Source of the DNA: a virus
Reading direction: 5' to 3' (one strand)
IMG/VR virus record: IMGVR_UViG_3300028835_000265
Coordinates: 1 to 22,225 of that record
Length of the DNA: 22,225 nucleotides
A program made the position numbers and the translations under genes. Shown piece by piece: positions 3,243-12,333 of the stretch. Positions within the stretch are counted from its first letter, which is position 1; each line of letters begins with the position of its first letter. A model generated the notes under the pieces. That model searched no databases. It was given only the letters and a program-made list of their open reading frames with translations, and was not told where the DNA came from.

Positions 3243-3319
3243 GCGGGTATAGCAAAGTCCGGTAATGCGGAAGGCTTCCACCCTTCTATGCGTAGGTTCA
3301 AATCCTACTACTCGCTCCA
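3243..3319 (+). tRNA. tRNA-Gly (anticodon TCC)
   Basis: The acceptor GCGGGTA pairs with TACTCGC, then T and an encoded CCA. The anticodon stem is GAAGG/CCTTC with loop CTTCCAC, giving TCC. The T arm is GTAGG/CCTAC with loop TTCAAAT. The D stem is short (GCA/TGC). It is the first of five tRNA genes in the first cluster. Confidence 0.85.
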
Positions 3320-3326
3320 CAATTTT

Positions 3327-3405
3327 GGCTTGTTAGCTTAGCATGGCTTAAAGCACCGGCTTGTCAGGTCGGGGATCAACGGTTCGAATCCGTTACAGGC
3401 CGCCA
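3327..3405 (+). tRNA. tRNA-Asp (anticodon GTC)
   Basis: The acceptor GGCTTGT pairs with ACAGGCC, followed by G and encoded CCA. The anticodon stem CCGGC/GTCGG holds loop TTGTCAG (GTC). The T arm has the usual loop TTCGAAT. All arms are regular. Confidence 0.88.
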
Positions 3406-3411
3406 TTTAAT

Positions 3412-3487
3412 GGGGGAGTAGCTCAGTTGGGAGAGCAATTGCCTTGCACGCAATAGGTCGCAGGTTCGATCCCTGTCTCCTCCACCA
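3412..3487 (+). tRNA. tRNA-Ala (anticodon TGC)
   Basis: The acceptor GGGGGAG pairs with CTCCTCC, followed by A and CCA. The D arm is canonical (GCTC...GAGC). The anticodon stem ATTGC/GCAAT carries loop CTTGCAC. The T arm is GCAGG/CCTGT with loop TTCGATC. Confidence 0.93.
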
Positions 3488-3492
3488 TCCAT

Positions 3493-3568
3493 GCCGGGTT
3501 AGCTCAGTAGGAAGAGCGGTAGTCTTGTAAACTACTTGTCACAGGTTCGATTCCTGTACCCGGCTCCA
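3493..3568 (+). tRNA. tRNA-Thr (anticodon TGT)
   Basis: The acceptor GCCGGGT pairs perfectly with ACCCGGC, followed by T and CCA. The anticodon stem GTAGT/ACTAC has loop CTTGTAA. The T arm is ACAGG/CCTGT. It is a regular class I tRNA. Confidence 0.93.
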
Positions 3569-3571
3569 TAC

Positions 3572-3643
3572 GGGGCTGGTCACGGGTTGCACTTGTGGAC
3601 TCCAAATCCTAAAGGCAGGGTTCGATTCCTTGCAGCTTCGCCA
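3572..3643 (+). tRNA. tRNA-Trp-like (anticodon CCA), atypical
   Basis: The acceptor GGGGCTG pairs with CAGCTTC, with two G-T pairs, followed by G and CCA. The T arm is CAGGG/CCTTG with loop TTCGATT. The loop CTCCAAA places CCA as the anticodon. Only three pairs (GGA/TCC) close that loop and the D arm is irregular, so the 5' half is a few bases short. It may be a functional but divergent tRNA or a decaying copy. The Trp-repeat protein at 5661-6452 makes a Trp tRNA plausible. Confidence 0.5.
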
Positions 3644-3670
3644 CACTAACAAAAAAGTTTCACACTAACA
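3642..3670 (+). repeat. Short direct repeat CACACTAACA
   Basis: CACACTAACA occurs at 3642-3651, overlapping the end of the tRNA-Trp-like CCA, and again at 3661-3670. Nine bases separate the copies, just before the gene at 3695. It may be a scar of tRNA gain or loss by recombination. Confidence 0.35.
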
Positions 3671-3694
3671 TAACTATTTAACGGGGGGAAAAAA

Positions 3695-4021
3695 ATGTTA
3701 CGAGATAAAATTACACGAATTGCTCAGGCCAATATTCAAGAAGTATTGGTACCATTGCTTGAGCGGATTGAGGCACTTGAAGAAGCTATGGATGCCAAGT
3801 TTGCGGCTCCAGAGGTTGTTAAAGTGCCAGAGATCGTGCGTCAGCACAACAATCAATTACTGCAAGAAACGCTGGAAGGTGAAAACGATTACGTCCAGCG
3901 ACATCTGGAGGATGAAGAATGCGAAGAACTGGAGACAAACACGGAGCCAGAAGTGGAGGCACCAGCACCAGAGTCGTCATTAAATGCAGACGACCTAACG
4001 GAAGCCAAGGAAGGTAAGTAA
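3695..4021 (+). CDS. Small acidic protein with N-terminal coiled coil
   Basis: This 108-residue protein has heptad-like spacing of Leu, Ile and Glu at about residues 15-40. Its second half is very rich in Glu and Asp. A strong GGGGGG site precedes the ATG. The next gene begins 1 base after its stop, so the two are probably co-translated. Both sit between the two tRNA clusters. No family is recognised. The acidic tail and coiled coil would fit a DNA-mimic, assembly or partner protein, but nothing here decides this. Confidence 0.6.
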   Translation: MLRDKITRIAQANIQEVLVPLLERIEALEEAMDAKFAAPEVVKVPEIVRQHNNQLLQETLEGENDYVQRHLEDEECEELETNTEPEVEAPAPESSLNADDLTEAKEGK

Positions 4022-4022
4022 T

Positions 4023-4427
4023 ATGGGACGAGACAAAGGTACACCTAATCGAAGAAGTCAAATGCTTCTGCGTAAACTTGAAGACGATCATAAGTTCTTT
4101 GTTGTGAACGAACTGATTGAGCTATATGGTTACGAGAAGCAAATCGTGGTTTCTCTGGCAGAAAAGATTGGCAAGAATTTAGAAGCTAATCTGCCTGTGA
4201 ATCAGGGCTTCAATGAAGAGGAAGCGGAAATGTATAATGCGGCGAATAAGAATGCAACCAGTATTCTTGTAAGGCTTCTCGCATATCTATACCCGAAGCT
4301 CAAGGCTACCGAAATCTCCAGTGGATCAGGTGACAAAGTCATCTTTAATATTAATACGATGCCAGAGGTTTCATCCGAAAAGAAACAACAGCATCCACCG
4401 GCAGAGGTGGTGCAACTTAAAAAATAA
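4023..4427 (+). CDS. Putative terminase small subunit-like protein
   Basis: This 134-residue protein begins with a basic M-G-R-x-K-G-T-P-N-R-R segment. It has two helical blocks and a C-terminal L-L-A-Y-L-Y-P-K-L-K-A-T-E-I-S motif. That N- and C-terminal pattern is familiar from small-terminase or DNA-packaging-associated proteins of podovirus-like phages. If so, it would recognise phage DNA and recruit the large subunit at 12516. It lies about 8 kb from that gene, which is unusual. The ribosome binding site AAGGAAGG lies in the end of the upstream gene. The first tRNA of the next cluster starts at the base after its stop. The assignment is tentative. Confidence 0.5.
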   Translation: MGRDKGTPNRRSQMLLRKLEDDHKFFVVNELIELYGYEKQIVVSLAEKIGKNLEANLPVNQGFNEEEAEMYNAANKNATSILVRLLAYLYPKLKATEISSGSGDKVIFNINTMPEVSSEKKQQHPPAEVVQLKK

Positions 4428-4500
4428 CAGAGAGGCTATAAGGTATGGGCTGTGCTTTGGAAGCATGGCCAAGTTGGTTCGATTCCAACCTCTCTGACCA
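4428..4500 (+). tRNA. tRNA-Pro (anticodon TGG)
   Basis: The acceptor CAGAGAG pairs perfectly with CTCTCTG, followed by A and CCA. The T arm is GTTGG/CCAAC with loop TTCGATT. The anticodon loop TTTGGAA gives TGG on a stem with two G-T pairs. The D arm is weak and short. It begins directly after the stop codon of the preceding gene and ends directly at the next tRNA, so processing must cut with no spacer. Confidence 0.75.
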
Positions 4501-4575
4501 AGAGGGTTGGCGAATCGGCAAACGCAAGAGACTTTGAATCTCTCATAACTGGATCGACACCAGTACCCTCTTCCA
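4501..4575 (+). tRNA. tRNA-Gln (anticodon TTG)
   Basis: The acceptor AGAGGGT pairs with ACCCTCT, followed by T and CCA. The anticodon stem AGAGA/TCTCT has loop CTTTGAA. The T stem ACTGG/CCAGT is perfect. The T loop is ATCGACA, so the nearly invariant T at position 54 is A. Confidence 0.85.
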
Positions 4576-4579
4576 ATTT

Positions 4580-4649
4580 AGCGATCGTACAGAACCTCAT
4601 TGGCCTCATACGCCTTTCGAGATCGGAGCATTACCGATGATCGCAACCA
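4580..4649 (+). tRNA. Degenerate tRNA-like element (CAT anticodon, Met-like)
   Basis: Six acceptor pairs (GCGATC/GATCGC) are followed by A and CCA. A perfect T stem ATCGG/CCGAT is present. The loop CTCATAC closed by GGC/GCC would give CAT. The 1-72 pair is A-A. The D arm is too short and lacks the GG pair, and the T loop AGCATTA lacks TTCRA. It is probably a decayed or highly divergent tRNA-Met or Ile2 gene. Confidence 0.35.
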
Positions 4650-4653
4650 ATTT

Positions 4654-4739
4654 GGGAAGGCTGGGTACGAGTGAACCTAAGAGACTGTAAATCTCCCGCC
4701 TAACGGCTGTGAAGGTGCAAATTCCTTCTCTTCCCACCA
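4654..4739 (+). tRNA. tRNA-Tyr (anticodon GTA), class II
   Basis: The acceptor GGGAAGG pairs with TCTTCCC, followed by A and CCA. The anticodon loop is CTGTAAA. A long variable arm with a GCC/GGC stem is typical of bacterial tRNA-Tyr. The T arm is GAAGG/CCTTC with an 8-base loop (TGCAAATT), one base longer than usual. Confidence 0.82.
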
Positions 4740-4744
4740 CATAC

Positions 4745-4823
4745 GATGGTGTAGGCCTAATAGGCATAGGGCTATGAGTCTCTCAAACTCAGGGCACGGG
4801 TTCGAGTCCCGTCACCATCACCA
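4745..4823 (+). tRNA. tRNA-Glu (anticodon CTC)
   Basis: The acceptor GATGGTG pairs perfectly with CACCATC, followed by A and CCA. The anticodon stem TGAGT/ACTCA has loop CTCTCAA. The T arm is ACGGG/CCCGT with loop TTCGAGT. The D stem GGCC/GGCT is complete. Confidence 0.86.
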
Positions 4824-4828
4824 ATTTT

Positions 4829-4913
4829 GGCGGGATGCGTGCATGGGCACAAACCGGTGTTGAATACCGGGCTGAGGTTACACTCAAGAGTTCGATTCTT
4901 TATCCCGCCGCCA
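4829..4913 (+). tRNA. tRNA-Ser (anticodon TGA), class II
   Basis: The acceptor GGCGGGA pairs with TCCCGCC, followed by G and CCA. The anticodon stem CCGGT/ACCGG has loop GTTGAAT. The long variable arm has a TGAG/CTCA stem. The T stem is weak, with one mismatch, but the loop TTCGATT is normal. Confidence 0.85.
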
Positions 4914-4918
4914 GACAT

Positions 4919-4997
4919 GGTGGCAGTCATAATAAGTAGTTAATACCTTCGGCTGTGAACCGGAGGGATGCCGGTGCGAATCCGGTCTGTCACCCCA
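4919..4997 (+). tRNA. tRNA-His (anticodon GTG)
   Basis: The acceptor GTGGCAG pairs with CTGTCAC. An extra G at 4919 faces discriminator C at 4994, the usual His identity pair. The anticodon stem TTCGG/CCGGA holds loop CTGTGAA. The T loop is TGCGAAT, with G at the usual T55. Confidence 0.86.
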
Positions 4998-5002
4998 ATT
5001 AT

Positions 5003-5087
5003 GGGGGTATGGTGAAACTGGTAGACGCAGGGGATTTAGAATCCCCCGGAGCAATCCGTGAAGGTTCGACTCCTTCTACCCCCACCA
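5003..5087 (+). tRNA. tRNA-Leu (anticodon TAG), class II
   Basis: The acceptor GGGGGTA pairs with TACCCCC, followed by A and CCA. The anticodon stem GGGGA/TCCCC has loop TTTAGAA. A long variable arm and the T arm GAAGG/CCTTC with loop TTCGACT complete a regular tRNA-Leu. Confidence 0.93.
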
Positions 5088-5092
5088 TTTTA

Positions 5093-5181
5093 GGCAGGTT
5101 AGACAGATGGGAGAGTCACGCACTTTGCTAAAGTGTTCAGGGGTTAAACCCTTGCATGTTCGAGTCATGCACCTGCCGCCA
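5093..5181 (+). tRNA. tRNA-Ser (anticodon GCT), class II
   Basis: The acceptor GGCAGGT pairs with ACCTGCC, followed by G and CCA. The anticodon stem GCACT/AGTGT has loop TTGCTAA. The variable arm has a GGGG/CCCT-type stem. The T arm is GCATG/CATGC with loop TTCGAGT. Confidence 0.92.
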
Positions 5182-5184
5182 CAT

Positions 5185-5259
5185 AGCAGCGTAGCTCAGT
5201 GGTAGAGCAGACGACCGATAATCGTCAGGCCGAAAGTTCAAGTCTTTCCGCTGCTACCA
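5185..5259 (+). tRNA. tRNA-Ile (anticodon GAT) with C at position 33
   Basis: The acceptor AGCAGCG pairs with CGCTGCT, followed by A and CCA. The D and T arms are regular. The anticodon stem GACGA/TCGTC is perfect and its 7-base loop is CCGATAA. The anticodon is GAT, but position 33, almost always T/U, is C. Confidence 0.9.
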
Positions 5260-5262
5260 GAA

Positions 5263-5340
5263 GGGTCGGTAGCTCAGTCAGGTCAGAGCAGTAGGCTGTT
5301 AACCTACGGGTCGAAGGTTCAAATCCTTCCCGGCCCTCCA
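5263..5340 (+). tRNA. tRNA-Asn (anticodon GTT)
   Basis: The acceptor GGGTCGG pairs with CCGGCCC, followed by T and CCA. The anticodon stem GTAGG/CCTAC has loop CTGTTAA. The T arm is GAAGG/CCTTC with loop TTCAAAT. It is the last tRNA of the second cluster. Confidence 0.93.
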
Positions 5341-5370: not shown

Positions 5371-5649
5371 ATGAGTACAATTGAAGAAATCAAAGACAAA
5401 ATGGCAGAAGCCAAGGACTCCGTTGAGGACTCTCTGGAAGACATTGAAGCCAAACTGCGGGAACGCAAAGTGGATTTGGAAATTGAGCTTGACTCAATTA
5501 AAGACTCTCTTGGTGAGAAACTTGATGATGCCAAAGAAGAGATCGAAGGTTTTGTGAACAAAATCAAAGCCAACATCAAACCGATTCTGATTGGTGTAGC
5601 ACTTTTCGCTGGTGGAATTTTTGTAGGTTCACTAAGCTCAATCCTGTAA
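5371..5649 (+). CDS. Tail-anchored coiled-coil membrane protein
   Basis: This is a 92-residue protein. Residues 1-65 are a highly charged helix with regular hydrophobic spacing, predicted as a coiled coil. Residues about 68-90 form a single Gly-rich hydrophobic segment (I-L-I-G-V-A-L-F-A-G-G-I-F-V-G) that ends at the C terminus. This is the layout of a tail-anchored membrane protein. A TTAAGGAG site precedes the ATG, and the next gene starts 12 bases after its stop. The role is unknown. A holin/spanin-like lysis part or a virion membrane contact protein are possibilities only. Confidence 0.6.
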   Translation: MSTIEEIKDKMAEAKDSVEDSLEDIEAKLRERKVDLEIELDSIKDSLGEKLDDAKEEIEGFVNKIKANIKPILIGVALFAGGIFVGSLSSIL

Positions 5650-5660
5650 GGGGGTAAATC

Positions 5661-6452
5661 ATGTCAGTATATTGGAAATCAGGGGCTACTGTGAAGTGGA
5701 CTGAGCCTCTGATTGGGGCCACGGTTCATTGGTATGGCCTTTATAAATGGAGTGCATTTGACTCAAGTTGGAAAATATTTAACGTAGATTCATTTGACTC
5801 CTCATGGCAGATACGTGCTGCGGCTGGATTTGATTCAGCTTGGAAGATTTTTAATACCAACACATTCGATTCATCTTGGAAGATTTATAATTTAGATTCT
5901 TTTAACTCTGCATGGAAAATCTTTAATGTTGATTCGTTCGATGCGGCTTGGAAAATCTATAACTTAAATGCTTTCAATTCAAGCTGGAAGATATTTAATC
6001 TTGACTCGTTTAATTCCAGTTGGAAGATATTTAATCTTGACTCATTCAATTCGAGTTGGAAAATTTATAATTTAGATTCGTTTAATTCGTCATGGAAAAT
6101 CTTTAATTCGACAGGGCAAGATTTTAGCTGGAAGATTTTTAACCTTGCTGCGTTCGACTCCAGTTGGAAGTTATACAATCTTGCAGATTTTGATAGTTCG
6201 TGGACAGTGATTGGGGTACAGTATGAGCCAATTACTTTAGTCAAAGTGAATCCATTACTTTTTACAATTGATGCGCATCCTTTGATTTTTCAATTCAAAT
6301 CATTTAATTCAACATTGCCAATAACTACACATACAGTAAAACCAGTTGACTTTTCAATCAGTGCGACTCCGGTAGAGACAGATATCAAAGCCCATCCGGT
6401 AGACACTGAGTTTGTAACAACAAAACATAACCATACAAGTGAGGTAATTTAA
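5661..6452 (+). CDS. Trp-repeat appendage protein (13 x 12 residues)
   Basis: This is a 263-residue protein. After a Trp-rich lead (W at 5, 13, 24 and 30), residues 33-188 are thirteen tandem 12-residue units. The consensus is F-[DN]-S-[SA]-W-K-I-[FY]-N-[LV]-[DN]-[SA]. Units 2, 11 and 13 are the most divergent. Each unit keeps its Trp, and Lys follows in 11 of 13. The tail (about 195-263) has weaker V-x-P-x-x-F and A-H/T-P-[LV] repeats and ends in H-N-H. There is no signal peptide or membrane segment. The stop shares a base with the next start. Its place among virion genes suggests a fibre or adhesin shaft, perhaps a beta-solenoid. The family is not recognised. The repeat DNA is AT-rich compared with its neighbours. 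Confidence 0.65.
   Translation: MSVYWKSGATVKWTEPLIGATVHWYGLYKWSAFDSSWKIFNVDSFDSSWQIRAAAGFDSAWKIFNTNTFDSSWKIYNLDSFNSAWKIFNVDSFDAAWKIYNLNAFNSSWKIFNLDSFNSSWKIFNLDSFNSSWKIYNLDSFNSSWKIFNSTGQDFSWKIFNLAAFDSSWKLYNLADFDSSWTVIGVQYEPITLVKVNPLLFTIDAHPLIFQFKSFNSTLPITTHTVKPVDFSISATPVETDIKAHPVDTEFVTTKHNHTSEVI
5757..6224 (+). repeat. Thirteen 36-bp coding repeats
   Basis: These are tandem 36-base units encoding the Trp motif. Units 7 to 9 (about 5973-6080) are nearly identical in protein and very close in DNA, while outer units have drifted. This fits expansion by unequal exchange in the middle of the array. Confidence 0.85.
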
Positions 6453-6934
6453 TGGCTGCTGTAATAGAATTTAGACTAACCGGTGGAGGCGCAAACGCTG
6501 ACCCAGATGCATCTTTAGGTGGTACCATGAGTTCCGTGGAAATCTCAGGAACAGTCATGAACAATCTATTTGATCATGTGGACGAAGATGAGGCTACACC
6601 CGGCGACATTGAGTACCGGGCGTTTGATATCTATAACTCCGGTGCCGATCAAGCTGATGATGTCACCCTGTGGATAGATGATGAAACTGCTTCAGGCGAT
6701 ACCGCAATTGATGTGGGTATTGACGCTACAGCTACGCAGGAACTGGCAGATGAAGACACAGCCCCGGACGCACCAGTTGTGACCTTTACCCATCCGACCA
6801 CTGAGGGTGCCGCTTTAGATTGTGGTGACATTGCTGCCTCTGCTGCGGTTCGTATTTTTGTCAGACGGACAGTAGGCGCTGCTGCGGTCAACCACAACAA
6901 TGATCTGTGCGGAATAACTGTACGTTTCGCTTAA
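6452..6934 (+). CDS. Conserved beta-rich phage virion protein
   Basis: This is a 160-residue protein. The N terminus has E-F-R-L-T-G-G-G-A-N-A-D-P-D-A-S-L-G-G, followed by N-N-L-F-D-H-V and E-Y-R-A-F-D-I-Y-N-S-G. Near the end is V-R-I-F-V-R-R-T-V-G-A-A-A and an N-N-D motif. This order of motifs matches a beta-sandwich phage protein family I recall from structural modules, of unknown exact role. Its ATG overlaps the last base of the upstream stop, so translation is likely coupled to the Trp-repeat protein. A decoration or fibre-linked part is inferred. Confidence 0.65.
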   Translation: MAAVIEFRLTGGGANADPDASLGGTMSSVEISGTVMNNLFDHVDEDEATPGDIEYRAFDIYNSGADQADDVTLWIDDETASGDTAIDVGIDATATQELADEDTAPDAPVVTFTHPTTEGAALDCGDIAASAAVRIFVRRTVGAAAVNHNNDLCGITVRFA

Positions 6935-7732: not shown

Positions 7733-8587
7733 ATGGCTCAACAAACATGGACTGACCCTTCTTATGCGGTGACATTCAAGCCAGTTCATGCAGACGAACT
7801 GCAAGATGCCATTAATGCATGGGAAGCCGCTTACGGTATTTCGTTAACAACCTTCACGGATGAAGAGCCAACAACGAATACACGGATAGATGCGCTTCTC
7901 TTCACAGAAATGCAAGATGCTTTAGATGCTCTCAAGACCTTAATTGGTGAGGGTACATTCACATGGACAGCGGCAGCGGGGTATATATTTGGAAGCATCC
8001 CAATGACAGATGGGGGTGATCCGCTGGTTGAAGAAGTCAGAGACAACATGAACTATATACAGAATGGCAAGTGCTATCAATGCCATAACTGTGATACTGA
8101 TACCTGCGGCTGTGATGCTACATGTGATGGATATGTCTGTAATTGTGATGCCTCCTGTGATGGGAATGTTGACTGTACTTGTAATGCTTCGTGCTTTGGT
8201 TATTCAGCATGCTCGTGCAATAGCGCTTGCTACGGAAACGTAAATTGCTCATGCAATAATACCTGTCATGGATATGGGGCATGCTCATGCAACGGCGCTT
8301 GTAACAGTCAATCGTGTAAGGCTGATTCATGTAATTGTGACTTTTCATGTCAGGGTCATTCGGCTTGCTCATGCAATAATACATGTTACGGAAACGTAAA
8401 TTGCTCCTGCAATAGCGCCTGTTTTGGATACTCAGCTTGTAGCTGTGATTCATCTTGTGATGGAAATGTTGACTGTACGTGTGATTCAGTTTGTAACAAT
8501 GAGGGTGCGTGTTCTTGTGATGTGACGTGCTTTACCGATGTATGTGTTCAATGTCACGTTGCAGCTTATGAGTATCCTTGGACATAA
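7733..8587 (+). CDS. Virion-type protein with 42-Cys tandem repeat tract
   Basis: This is a 284-residue protein. Residues 1-110 contain two related phage-fibre segments (W-T-D-P/W-T-A-A starts, then H-A-D-E-L-Q-D-A-I-N and L-V-E-E-V-R-D-N-M), a typical virion attachment module. Residues 114-274 contain 42 Cys by my count. The basic unit is 12 residues, C-x-C-x-x-x-C-x-G-x-x-x. Two units make a 24-residue super-repeat, G-N-V-[DN]-C-[ST]-C then G-Y-[SG]-A-C-S-C. There is no signal peptide. The next genes are a membrane protein, a PanC-like enzyme and a radical SAM/SPASM enzyme, so the tract is a candidate modification substrate. Disulfide or metal binding are alternatives. Confidence 0.7.
   Translation: MAQQTWTDPSYAVTFKPVHADELQDAINAWEAAYGISLTTFTDEEPTTNTRIDALLFTEMQDALDALKTLIGEGTFTWTAAAGYIFGSIPMTDGGDPLVEEVRDNMNYIQNGKCYQCHNCDTDTCGCDATCDGYVCNCDASCDGNVDCTCNASCFGYSACSCNSACYGNVNCSCNNTCHGYGACSCNGACNSQSCKADSCNCDFSCQGHSACSCNNTCYGNVNCSCNSACFGYSACSCDSSCDGNVDCTCDSVCNNEGACSCDVTCFTDVCVQCHVAAYEYPWT
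8072..8554 (+). repeat. Cys-codon tandem repeat tract
   Basis: The tract has about 36-base units with a 72-base higher order. The 20-base word TACGGAAACGTAAATTGCTC occurs exactly at 8231-8250 and 8387-8406. A 16-base word TTGCTCATGCAATAAT occurs at 8245-8260 and 8365-8380. These point to recent internal duplication. Confidence 0.85.
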
Positions 8588-8618
8588 ATTTTAAATTAGT
8601 GTTAGGAGGGAAACTAAG

Positions 8619-9650
8619 GTGTGGAATTGGATTAAAGATAAATTTAACAAATTGAAAAGCATCAGTTATGATTGGCTACCGCTATCAGGCATGGTGCTAA
8701 TTGTCTATATGATTCAGCGAGGATTTTCTGCCATAGCAAAATCAGGTGTGGTGGAAATGAACTTGAAACAAGGAATGGGGATTTTCTTTACAACCGTTTC
8801 CTTATCAGTTCTGGCACTTGGCTTTATGAGCGATCGTGTGAAAGCACATTACCTAATAGCCGCTGCCACCTTTGCGGGTGTCTTAGGTATTCTTGGAGCA
8901 GCCTTTAACATGTGGCTGTTTGGAATCGGTCTGGGACTCGCAGCCGCAGCAGTTAAGATACTGCCGTTTGCAGTGCCGCTAAAGAATAAGGATAGTGAGA
9001 TTGACTCATTACGAGTTGCACCACAAGCATCAGCCAAGACTTTCGGAAGTGCCCTTTTCTATTTGCTACTGGCCGCTGTAGTCAAAGCCGCTGGCTTTAG
9101 TATGTTCGCAGCAGCAGCAGCCGCACTCTTTGCCTTCTTTGGTACATGGGCTTCGTTCGCAGTTAAAGATCATTCGTTCAAACTTCTATCATGGAGTAAA
9201 ACGAAGGTTGCGGAATTGCTCAAGACTCCGAAGTGGTGGTACTGGACAGCTTGGCATACGATCATCGGATGCGTGTATTATCTCTGTATCACAAAGGTGA
9301 TCCCGGCATTCATGACTTTTGGTATGACCAAGATGGAAGCCATTTACGCTTTTGGTATTGCAGCCCTAAGCACAGCGCTACTTCGTTGGCCCGGTGCTTG
9401 GTTAGGTACCAAGATCGGATACTGGAGAGCAATGTTGATTGCTGGTGTATGGCAGCTTGCTAATATCTGGCTGTTGATTAATCACCCCATAATTGGGCTA
9501 CCGTCCTTTTTCATTGGGATTCAACTAAACACTCAAAACTATTGGGCCTGTGCGAAGGAATGGTTCAAAGGCGACAAACTTGGTACCGCAATCGGAATGG
9601 CCTTTGTCATAACCTATATCGCTTTGGGCTTCACTTTTGGAAGATGGTAA
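8619..9650 (+). CDS. MFS-like multi-span membrane transporter
   Basis: This 343-residue, highly hydrophobic protein has about 11 membrane segments, at roughly residues 19-40, 52-72, 76-96, 98-121, 143-182 (two), 206-230, 240-262, 266-286, 290-307 and 323-343. The loop after segment 2 reads L-G-F-M-S-D-R-V-K-A-H-Y, close to the major facilitator motif A (G-x-x-x-D-R-x-G-R-R). The start is GTG with a strong GGAGGG site upstream. No nearer ATG fits. The following gene begins 1 base after its stop. Substrate unknown. It could move a precursor or product of the two enzymes downstream. A transporter inside a phage structural module is unusual. Confidence 0.6.
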   Translation: MWNWIKDKFNKLKSISYDWLPLSGMVLIVYMIQRGFSAIAKSGVVEMNLKQGMGIFFTTVSLSVLALGFMSDRVKAHYLIAAATFAGVLGILGAAFNMWLFGIGLGLAAAAVKILPFAVPLKNKDSEIDSLRVAPQASAKTFGSALFYLLLAAVVKAAGFSMFAAAAAALFAFFGTWASFAVKDHSFKLLSWSKTKVAELLKTPKWWYWTAWHTIIGCVYYLCITKVIPAFMTFGMTKMEAIYAFGIAALSTALLRWPGAWLGTKIGYWRAMLIAGVWQLANIWLLINHPIIGLPSFFIGIQLNTQNYWACAKEWFKGDKLGTAIGMAFVITYIALGFTFGRW

Positions 9651-9651
9651 A

Positions 9652-10539
9652 ATGGAAGTCATTAATCGGGAACAGGAATATAATCTAATCGCTGATCATG
9701 CTAACAATCCGATCGTTCACTTTGGATTGCAGGGCAAGAATGTATCATACCTACACGCTGGGCATGCGTGGATGATATCAGAGATTAAACGCTTGCGGCC
9801 AGACGCAAAAATAGTCGTAAAGATATTTATGCCAATTCTCGAACTCTTTACCCTGTCAGGTTGGTTAGATGGTGGAGATAGCTTTCACCCAAACTACCTC
9901 AAGCCCTATGAGCAAGATGCCCTTTTAGAGTGGTGTACCAACCACGGAATTGACTACGTTTTAGAAATGAGTCTGGAAGAGTTCACACCGTGGCATAATG
10001 ATAAAGATCGAATGGGCGCAGCAGTCATGCTCCCTCTACATAATTTAGACTTTGATGCGCTTTACAAACCGTTTGATAAAATTGTGGAGAAAGCAGATAA
10101 GATTATGCTTGATGATGAATTAGATATTTTTCATAATAAAATGATTGTTGGTCTTTTGCGATCGCATTTGATTGCGGCTCTTTCCGGTGCAGTTGATTAT
10201 AAAATTAAGGCTTCTGGAAAAAGAGATTTGTATATGAACATGGCCAAGGAATACATTTATAAAACTTATTCCAAGTATGAAGACTATCTTTTAATTGACC
10301 CGTACATAGATGAGGACTATGGTGTGCCTGTAAGTAGCTCCCGGCTTCTCATTGATGGTGCCGATGATTTTACCAAAGAGGAAAAGGCTAAAGTCAAAAA
10401 GGCAGCCTTGGATTTTTTAGACGACAAAACTGAACCCACTTTTAAATATACACCGAAATGGTTAAAGGGTTTATCATACTCAAAACTCAGCTACCAGCTA
10501 CCAACTGGCCGTTGGCTGGCAATACGAAAAATTAAGTAA
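9652..10539 (+). CDS. Pantothenate synthetase (PanC)-like HxGH ligase-fold enzyme
   Basis: This is a 295-residue protein, close to the usual PanC length. Residues 33-40 read Y-L-H-A-G-H-A-W. This matches the H-x-G-H nucleotide-binding signature of PanC, which usually appears as L-H-E-G-H-L-S-L. The I-V-V-K-I-F-M-P strand that follows matches the PanC V-V-V-S-I-F-V-N region. Residues 188-192 (S-G-K-R-D) and 227-234 (V-S-S-S-R-L-L-I) match the PanC G-E-K-D and M-S-S-R-N regions loosely. PanC joins pantoate and beta-alanine through an acyl-adenylate. This copy is divergent, so another acid-amine ligation or nucleotidyl transfer is possible. ATG 9652 was chosen over TTG 9637. The middle of the gene is markedly AT-rich. 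Confidence 0.6.
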   Translation: MEVINREQEYNLIADHANNPIVHFGLQGKNVSYLHAGHAWMISEIKRLRPDAKIVVKIFMPILELFTLSGWLDGGDSFHPNYLKPYEQDALLEWCTNHGIDYVLEMSLEEFTPWHNDKDRMGAAVMLPLHNLDFDALYKPFDKIVEKADKIMLDDELDIFHNKMIVGLLRSHLIAALSGAVDYKIKASGKRDLYMNMAKEYIYKTYSKYEDYLLIDPYIDEDYGVPVSSSRLLIDGADDFTKEEKAKVKKAALDFLDDKTEPTFKYTPKWLKGLSYSKLSYQLPTGRWLAIRKIK

Positions 10540-10547
10540 GGAGATAT

Positions 10548-11987
10548 ATGATGGAGGGATTATCATCCTGCACCCTTGATTTAACAGAGGGTTGTAACTT
10601 AGCGTGTGATTATTGTTTCACACATTCGCAGCATAAATCGAAGCATCTCACAATTGACATGGGAAAGCGGATACTTGATTGGTGGATGCCTCAAACGTCC
10701 ACTGACAGGCCTCTGAGTGTCACATGGTGGGGTGGGGAGCCATTAATCCGATGGGATACCCTACAAGAGTTGACGTACTATGCTGAGGCCAAGGCCAAAG
10801 AGTTAGGTCGAGAGGTTTCTTTTGGTGGTACCACAAACGGTGTTCTTTACACACCAGACAGAGTGAAGTGGTGTCTGGAGCATAAGTCACTGTTTATGAT
10901 ATCTATGGATGGCCTAAGAGATCAACATGACGCTCACCGTTGCTTTAAAAACGGTACTGGCTCATGGGATAAGGTAGTTGAAAATGTGCGTCTGGCCTTA
11001 GCGGTTGTACCGTCTACAAAGGTGCGTATGTCGCTGCATGCAGATCACGTTAAAGACTTTTTTAAATCTATAAAATTTATGTTTGAAGATTTGGGATTAC
11101 AGGAAGCAATTTATTCTCCGGTCTATGAGTCTAATTGGACACCTGAGAATCTTAAAATTGCGGCAGAGCAACTTGCGTTGACTGTAGAGTACCAAGTCGA
11201 GCGGGTTAAGAAAGGGTTACCTGCTACAATCAAACACCTTAATGATGAAGCCATTGGTAACGGTGGGCCGAAGTATAATCCATGCGGTGCCGGGACTCAT
11301 TATATGTCATGGTCAGTAGACGGGTATGGTTTTCCGTGTCACCGATTTAACAAACACGGGTTATCCGCTAACGAAAAAGCAGCGTCACCAACGTGTATCG
11401 CTCAACCAAAGGGAGACTCGTTCGAATGGATAAACCGGGACTTCCTTGACGAGTTCGACTTTATCAACGATCCCTGCACAAGCTGTCAGAAGTGCGAGAT
11501 TTGGGGTGCGGGTAAATCGGGCTGCAACGGCGGGTGCTATGCAACCAATTACGACTTTACGGGTGACATACGTAAACAGCCTAAAGTTGAATGTGCGTTC
11601 ACCAAAGTCCAGCACGAAGCGGGGTTATTGCTCCGGGCCAAAGCCAAAGAAGCTGGTGTGAGTTTAATGCAGAGTCCTCAACAGCATAAGCCTAAAGGCT
11701 GCGTTTGTTTTAACATGTGTTATTCAGAAGGAACCGATAGGGAGATCATCCATTTAGACCGAAGCTCTGAAAGGGCTTGCGTATGCGACCATACAAACTA
11801 CACGGGTAGTACAGAGGCTCAGGCCCGACCTATTCAGAACCGTTTTGCGGATCGGGAAATACTTACAAAGTTCTTGAACCTGAGTAAACGGATATTGGCT
11901 AACCCAGAGGGTGATGAAAAACAGCGTGAACTCTCAAACGACATTTTAAACAAAACGATAAGGATGATAGAAAATGCCAGATTTTGA
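10548..11987 (+). CDS. Radical SAM/SPASM peptide-maturase-like enzyme
   Basis: This is a 479-residue protein. C16-x3-C20-x2-C23 is the radical SAM cluster motif (C-N-L-A-C-D-Y-C). G62-G-E-P is the SAM-binding motif. A SPASM-type auxiliary cluster region follows, with C246 (C-G-A-G), C264 (P-C-H-R-F), C310, C313 and C316 (C-x2-C-x2-C), C326 and C330 (C-x3-C) and C349. SPASM enzymes make thioether or carbon cross-links in peptides or formylglycine in proteins. An extra tail carries C385, C387, C391, C411 and C413. An AAGGAGAT site precedes the ATG, right after the PanC-like gene. It ends in the only TGA stop and overlaps the next gene by 14 bases. The substrate is inferred to be the Cys-repeat protein. 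Confidence 0.85.
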   Translation: MMEGLSSCTLDLTEGCNLACDYCFTHSQHKSKHLTIDMGKRILDWWMPQTSTDRPLSVTWWGGEPLIRWDTLQELTYYAEAKAKELGREVSFGGTTNGVLYTPDRVKWCLEHKSLFMISMDGLRDQHDAHRCFKNGTGSWDKVVENVRLALAVVPSTKVRMSLHADHVKDFFKSIKFMFEDLGLQEAIYSPVYESNWTPENLKIAAEQLALTVEYQVERVKKGLPATIKHLNDEAIGNGGPKYNPCGAGTHYMSWSVDGYGFPCHRFNKHGLSANEKAASPTCIAQPKGDSFEWINRDFLDEFDFINDPCTSCQKCEIWGAGKSGCNGGCYATNYDFTGDIRKQPKVECAFTKVQHEAGLLLRAKAKEAGVSLMQSPQQHKPKGCVCFNMCYSEGTDREIIHLDRSSERACVCDHTNYTGSTEAQARPIQNRFADREILTKFLNLSKRILANPEGDEKQRELSNDILNKTIRMIENARF

Positions 11988-12333
11988 ACGTAAAACAATA
12001 GAGGTCAGATATTACAGTGATGATTACGGCCCACATAATTTTGACATGGAAGAAGCCCTACCAACAGGTACGGTACTTTCCTCAGCAACCGTCAAAAGTT
12101 ATCTTGGCAAAGTCGATAAGGAAGACGCAATCGCTGATCAGACAGAGACAACTTCTGAATTGATTAACGATTCAAAATCCATCGTAATCTCTGATTATAT
12201 CATTTCTGTTTACTTCGAGTATCCGTCTACCGCAGCTTACAAGAGCGGTCAGAAGCATACGGTTATATTTGAAGTCACCTTGGACAATGGCGCAAAGCAC
12301 AATTACTACTTTCAGTATGCAAGAGTGTTTTAA
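11974..12333 (+). CDS. Small beta-rich virion-type protein
   Basis: This 119-residue protein has alternating strands and no membrane segment. Motifs include A-L-P-T-G-T-V-L-S-S-A-T-V and F-E-V-T-L-D-N-G near the end, a pattern common in small Ig-like or beta-sandwich phage structural proteins. Its start overlaps the radical SAM gene by 14 bases, with a GGATGATAG stretch acting as ribosome binding site, so the two are probably translationally coupled. It marks the return to the structural programme before the terminase. Exact role unknown. Confidence 0.6.
   Translation: MPDFERKTIEVRYYSDDYGPHNFDMEEALPTGTVLSSATVKSYLGKVDKEDAIADQTETTSELINDSKSIVISDYIISVYFEYPSTAAYKSGQKHTVIFEVTLDNGAKHNYYFQYARVF

Follow-up and report, generated by a model that had tools for sequence, protein, structure and literature searches.

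The window, the whole 22,225-nucleotide stretch of viral DNA analyzed here (IMG/VR record IMGVR_UViG_3300028835_000265, positions 1 to 22,225), lies within a 69-kb viral contig, IMGVR_UViG_3300009488_000019, and derives from a podovirus-like phage. Its major capsid protein is of the N4-gp56 family (7e-88), and its portal is akin to the portals of Pseudomonas phage Rollin, HMO-2011, and Rhizobium phages. Between the terminase on one side and structural-type genes on the other lies a set of four genes on a single strand (7733-11987) encoding a Cys-repeat protein, an MFS-like membrane protein, a protein with an HxGH motif, and a radical SAM (rSAM) enzyme of the SPASM class (Table 1). The original prediction, made from the sequence alone, described the four as adjacent on one strand with minimal gaps; its coordinates are right, and the intergenic gaps are about 0-31 bp. 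The HxGH gene more likely begins at ATG 9652, judging from its upstream sequence, and the rSAM gene at ATG 10551, which is preceded by AAGGAG. Elsewhere in the window, 12 tRNA genes with differing anticodons cluster at 3243-5340, and 5661-6452 encodes a second repeat protein of about ten 12-residue units like SFNSSWKIFNLD, with Trp-Lys in almost all units and without a convincing family match.

Table 1. Features of the four-gene set and the gene that follows it
Feature	Position	Strand	Remarks
Cys-repeat protein, probable virion part; 284 aa, 42 Cys; proposed rSAM substrate	7733..8587	+	Full-length relative in L257
N-terminal domain of Cys-repeat protein, ~residues 1-112	7733..8068	+	Conserved in L257
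Array of 12 CxC[ND]xxC units	8105..8539	+	Residues 125-269; mostly 11-12 aa apart, one 16
MFS-like membrane protein, GTG start	8619..9650	+	PF07690 6e-4, below cut-off
HxGH protein, weakly PanC-like (putative member of nucleotidyltransferase/HIGH superfamily), conserved partner	9652..10539	+	HAGH motif
PapB/CteB-like radical SAM/SPASM enzyme, no fused RRE domain	10551..11987	+	Family, sequence, and fold matches
C-terminal segment of rSAM enzyme, ~residues 384-419, CVCFNMCY and CVCDHTNYTG	11697..11804	+	Conserved in L256, L257, L112, L259
Small protein after rSAM enzyme	11974..12333	+	Same place in L256, 47% identity

The codons of the Cys-repeat protein, 26 TGT and 16 TGC, give exactly the Cys count that had been predicted, and the protein contains 12 CxCxxxC units. 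The rSAM enzyme has 20 Cys, the terminase nine, and all other genes of the window 0-4. The repeat units differ from one another at many synonymous positions, and the repeat is therefore kept at the protein level. Across 16 proteins from different phages the consensus unit is C-[ST]-C-[ND]-x-T-C-Y-G, with a unit-to-unit spacing of 12 residues in 65 cases and 11 residues in 34. Position 4 is Asn in 91 of 140 units and Asp in 36, and Tyr8 is conserved almost as well as Cys. A first search pattern, CxCxxxCxG, was dropped, as it returned mostly low-complexity or antisense noise and one real relative, L112 (L-numbers are labels of the phage contig loci compared with the window). The closest relative, in L257, is 48% identical over aligned positions (39% by tblastn); the alignment covers the whole protein, including the N-terminal domain and the C-terminal AYxYPW, and the first pair of its units is often CxxC in place of CxC. 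The N-terminal domain, with two copies of an H/T..EL/M(Q/R)DA segment, is possibly a virion anchor or recognition part. In L269, a Cys-rich protein encoded next to three rSAMs begins with a domain of similar appearance. Upstream of its rSAM genes, the L112 phage also has a second short Cys-rich ORF of 111 aa with 19 Cys (L258:4613-4945). In cultured phages, tblastn found no match to the Cys-repeat protein, the L112 repeat, or the HxGH protein, and the relatives of the rSAM enzyme found there are all below 30% identity. A repeat-pattern scan of bacterial and archaeal species genomes gave 56 matches and no convincing repeat gene.

Several relatives of the Cys-repeat protein contain tail-protein domains. 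The repeat lies ahead of a J-type central tail protein of the tail tip in L262 and L260 (5e-40 and 4e-35), inside a baseplate-like protein in L161, and after DUF2341 and a LamG-like domain in L144; the L132/L263 repeat protein also has a C1q-like match slightly under the cut-off. These domains indicate that the repeat proteins are virion tail parts and, together with gene position, suggest that the protein in the window is probably one as well. RiPP precursors are small and have a leader, and their product is cleaved and exported; the candidate here has 284 aa, many relatives have 200-800 aa, and no classical leader was seen.

We then considered whether the repeat and the enzyme travel together. 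DNA patterns of the Cys repeat alone picked 17 contigs from the viral collection, some with real and some with weaker repeats, one being the window's own. Of the other 16, 14 have rSAM profile matches; the remaining two are fragments of 7.6 kb and 16.5 kb, the latter with a weak repeat. Among 50 control contigs that match a pattern by chance, rSAM matches are confined to two contigs and are weak in both (best 3.6e-8) (Fisher p = 1.7e-10 for 14/16 vs 2/50). When only strong matches (E<1e-20) are counted and a near-duplicate contig is removed, the ratio is 12/15 vs 0/50 (Fisher p 1.1e-10). The profile was built from six rSAM sequences out of five of these phages, originally detected by searches with the window enzyme or with its relatives from L112, and the contigs compared are metagenomic, some of them fragments. 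In the reverse direction, the closest rSAM relatives (L257-L264, L266, L129, L267, L145) share a contig with a Cys-repeat gene. Two do not: the L256 contig ends with the HxGH gene, and L265 is a fragment of 16 kb. Neither of the genomic outcomes named as refuting the original prediction, a repeat widespread without the enzyme or an enzyme widespread without the repeat, was observed for this enzyme clade. Two gut-phage rSAM matches, L326 and L327, have no Cys-repeat neighbor within the stretch read.

HxGH proteins accompany the pair in the window and in about eight of these phages (L256, L257, L112/L258, L136/L264, L132/L263, L148/L266, L260/L261, L181), and the predicted association of Cys-repeat protein, SPASM rSAM, and HxGH protein holds in unrelated phages. 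A second rSAM family and an uncharacterized protein, 'x', also recur; in L257 the order is Cys repeat, second rSAM, HxGH, rSAM. L256 and the window have portal (55%) and capsid (59%) in common, whereas neither was found in the other selected loci except for a very weak portal match in L265, in pieces that sometimes lack capsid genes, so the cassette seems to be present in different phage types. The distance from rSAM to repeat reaches kilobases in several phages, and some phages have two to four rSAMs, among which the enzyme acting on the repeat is not singled out.

The HxGH protein had been called a PanC-like ligase. With pantoate-beta-alanine ligase it shares the HxGH motif and, apparently, the beginning of the fold, and PanC leads the fold matches of a poor model (pLDDT 43), followed by TyrRS and FAD synthetase, none below 0.001. 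However, profile searches gave the window protein no family match, PF02569 included, and the relatives stay under its gathering score of 20.7 (L181, 19.2, E 7e-4; L256, 15.1, E 0.013). Alignment of the window protein with PanC is confined to the HxGH stretch at a probability of 30-45%, only H, G, and H are invariant across eight relatives, and, unlike those of PanC, the genes around it are not for pantothenate synthesis. The protein may belong to the HIGH superfamily, with a weak likeness to PanC. The MFS-like protein scores 19.2 bits against PF07690 over residues 53-336, where 33.4 is required. We rejected it as a cassette member: no homologue occurs in any of 14 related contigs, which goes against the suggestion that a transporter takes part and places the gene probably outside the conserved cassette. 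PDB sequence searches with the HxGH and MFS-like proteins returned nothing useful.

The rSAM enzyme matches PF04055 (3.5e-15), in agreement with its predicted class. Its CxxxCxxC motif occupies residues 16/20/23 and its SPASM Cys are at 246, 264, 313, 316, 326, 330, and 349, nearly all kept in relatives; in 14 sequences the columns of both clusters are invariant or nearly so. Its best family is the PapB ranthipeptide maturase (2.7e-58), followed by the SCIFF maturase and the QhpD-type maturase, with cyclophane-maker families at lower score. The nearest PDB structure is the thioether-forming SCIFF maturase CteB (sequence 3.2e-29, fold 1.3e-20). The enzyme is nevertheless under every curated family cut-off shown, with 197.8 bits (relatives 210-252) vs 340 for PapB (NF047865). 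Its rSAM motif begins about 15 residues after the enzyme start, leaving no room for a fused RRE, and a Pfam scan found no RRE family among ten neighboring proteins. Because of these scores and the lack of a fused RRE we do not file the enzyme as PapB or SCIFF, and a proposed substrate that is not a small peptide likewise places it outside these families and the sactipeptide enzymes.

Known systems nonetheless frame what the enzyme might do. PapA/PapB likewise pairs a SPASM rSAM with repeated Cys motifs and nearby acceptors, but the proposed substrate here is a phage-borne 284-aa virion protein in place of a small peptide, its repeats have Asn more often than Asp, and neither leader nor RRE was seen. 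CteB (TIGR03974; PDB 5WGG), whose chemistry is thioether formation, gives the best PDB match in fold and sequence, although the match begins at CteB residue 99, its N-terminal RRE part is missing from the window enzyme, and the family score is 145.7 vs 425. QhpD is a SPASM enzyme whose Cys-Asp/Glu cross-links are made within a protein subunit, not a small peptide. Its family, the quinohemoprotein amine dehydrogenase maturases (TIGR03906), is a strong match (6.2e-42) and also has a protein as target; unlike the Cys-repeat protein, that target is a single, bacterial, repeat-free enzyme subunit, and the score is 143.8 vs 453. The CXXX-repeat peptide modification system (TIGR04115) combines an rSAM with a Cys-repeat target, but differs in repeat spacing and location (123.4 vs 350).

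Taken together, these results suggest that the locus is likely a phage-encoded maturation cassette for a tail or appendage protein of the virion, and that the Cys repeat is very probably the rSAM substrate. The enzyme would bind SAM and Fe-S clusters to generate a 5'-deoxyadenosyl radical, and the Cys sulfurs of C-[ST]-C-[ND]-x-x-C-[Y]-[G] units would be joined to carbons of nearby residues at a cost of 2 Da per bond. By analogy with PapB and CteB, the acceptor would most likely be the following Asn/Asp or Thr/Ser. We favor such thioether chemistry, with some reservation. PapB joins Cys to the Asp beta carbon within CXnD, n=0-6, and its described acceptors are Asp/Glu (PMC9413430); Asn at position 4 of most units would be a departure from these. 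The least certain step is a further modification, for which the HxGH protein would activate either a carboxylate or a nucleotide.

A different rSAM reaction on the repeat, such as epimerization, a C-C or ether cross-link, or Tyr modification with no Cys thioether, we consider improbable: SPASM reactions are diverse, cyclophane makers do match at lower score, and Tyr8 rivals Cys in conservation, yet the best matches (PapB, SCIFF, QhpD-type TIGR03906) are thioether makers and Cys is the dominant residue of the repeat. The Cys and [ND] residues could instead serve disulfides or metals. Of these, disulfides survive somewhat better. The Tenebrio antifreeze protein is a disulfide-stapled beta-solenoid of 12-residue repeats, and a solenoid of that kind, oxidized after lysis while the rSAM acts elsewhere, would fit the 11-13-residue periodicity, the Cys-rich repeats, and the exposure of an extracellular virion part to oxygen. 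We find it unlikely, however, as it leaves unexplained both an rSAM peptide maturase in 14/16 repeat contigs and the repeat-like motif on the enzyme. Metal binding (Zn, Cu, or Fe-S), with the cassette building or modifying the sites, is a distant prospect: CxC and CxxC pairs are common metal-binding motifs, but enzymes of this SPASM group act on peptides, conservation extends to Asn/Asp, Thr, Tyr, and Gly positions that would also need explanation, and the neighboring genes have no metal-handling family match.

If rSAM cross-linking does occur, the 11-13-residue repeat array would become a chain of stapled loops, a stiff segment resisting protease and reduction and formed in the reducing cytosol before assembly. 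This mechanical role we put forward only tentatively.

The enzyme itself carries two motifs in its C-terminal segment that look like repeat units. The pair is also present in L256, L257, L112, and L259, reduced in L136, and absent from the second L112 enzyme, L129, and L262. Residues 378-433, between the SPASM domain and the helical end, are predicted to be disordered (pLDDT <50). This suggests that rSAMs of the window clade may bind or modify their own tail, which would be likewise modified or compete with the substrate. A folded metal site in the tail was also considered and is disfavored by the predicted disorder. In two other loci the rSAM genes (L146:2266-4569 and L267:1449-3119) have intein-like in-frame insertions at two different SPASM-region sites, each starting with Cys and ending in HN ahead of a Cys.

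We know of no phage structural protein matured by a radical SAM enzyme, and none was found described in the open-access literature by titles and abstracts. A dozen or more other uncultured phages with Cys repeat and rSAM suggest that some phages may cross-link part of the tail. On further phage contigs, rSAMs occur with Cys-rich proteins of other kinds. L276 has three rSAMs and a Cys-rich protein with 59 Cys in CTCNCNY units (L276:11379-12254). L269-L275 have three rSAMs with a Cys-rich protein bearing a window-like N-terminal domain, and in L282 (454-1191) a CK run (CKCK) precedes a tail-fiber S74 chaperone on an rSAM-bearing contig. Among cultured jumbo phages, SPN3US and phiEaH2 encode two Cys-rich ORFs, each of about 130 aa and 20 Cys, flanked by a virion structural gene on one side and a pair of rSAM genes on the other. 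These ORFs are of CSGxCSG type and un-, partly, or misannotated (L335:5035-5433, 5447-5848; L324:6063-6452, 6395-6862), and the region is present in 47 records. For the second rSAM of phiEaH2 the best matches are PapB (1e-38) and the CXXX-repeat maturase, and the arrangement appears analogous to the window cassette. Whether rSAM cross-linking of virions is a general phage strategy of several origins, acting on differing Cys-rich segments (CxCNxxCYG, CTCNCNY, (CK)n, CSGxCSG), with the window enzyme also modifying its own tail, we judge evenly balanced. Maturation of a virion protein by an rSAM, if true, would be a new virion chemistry, in which host-contacting parts receive irreversible staples while still in the cytosol, ahead of assembly. 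It would tie RiPP enzymology to phage tail biology, supply cross-linking enzymes with long, naturally occurring repeat substrates, and account for orphan rSAM genes beside virion genes in well-studied phages, e.g. SPN3US.

Two further loci were noted. L277:6629-6901 encodes an extreme Cys-rich segment (CCCC) on an rSAM-bearing contig, and Campylobacter phage CP220 has a protein with CxxC repeats (L323:16860-17231) whose gene lies within a few kb of genes for an rSAM and for a nucleotidyltransferase-domain protein.
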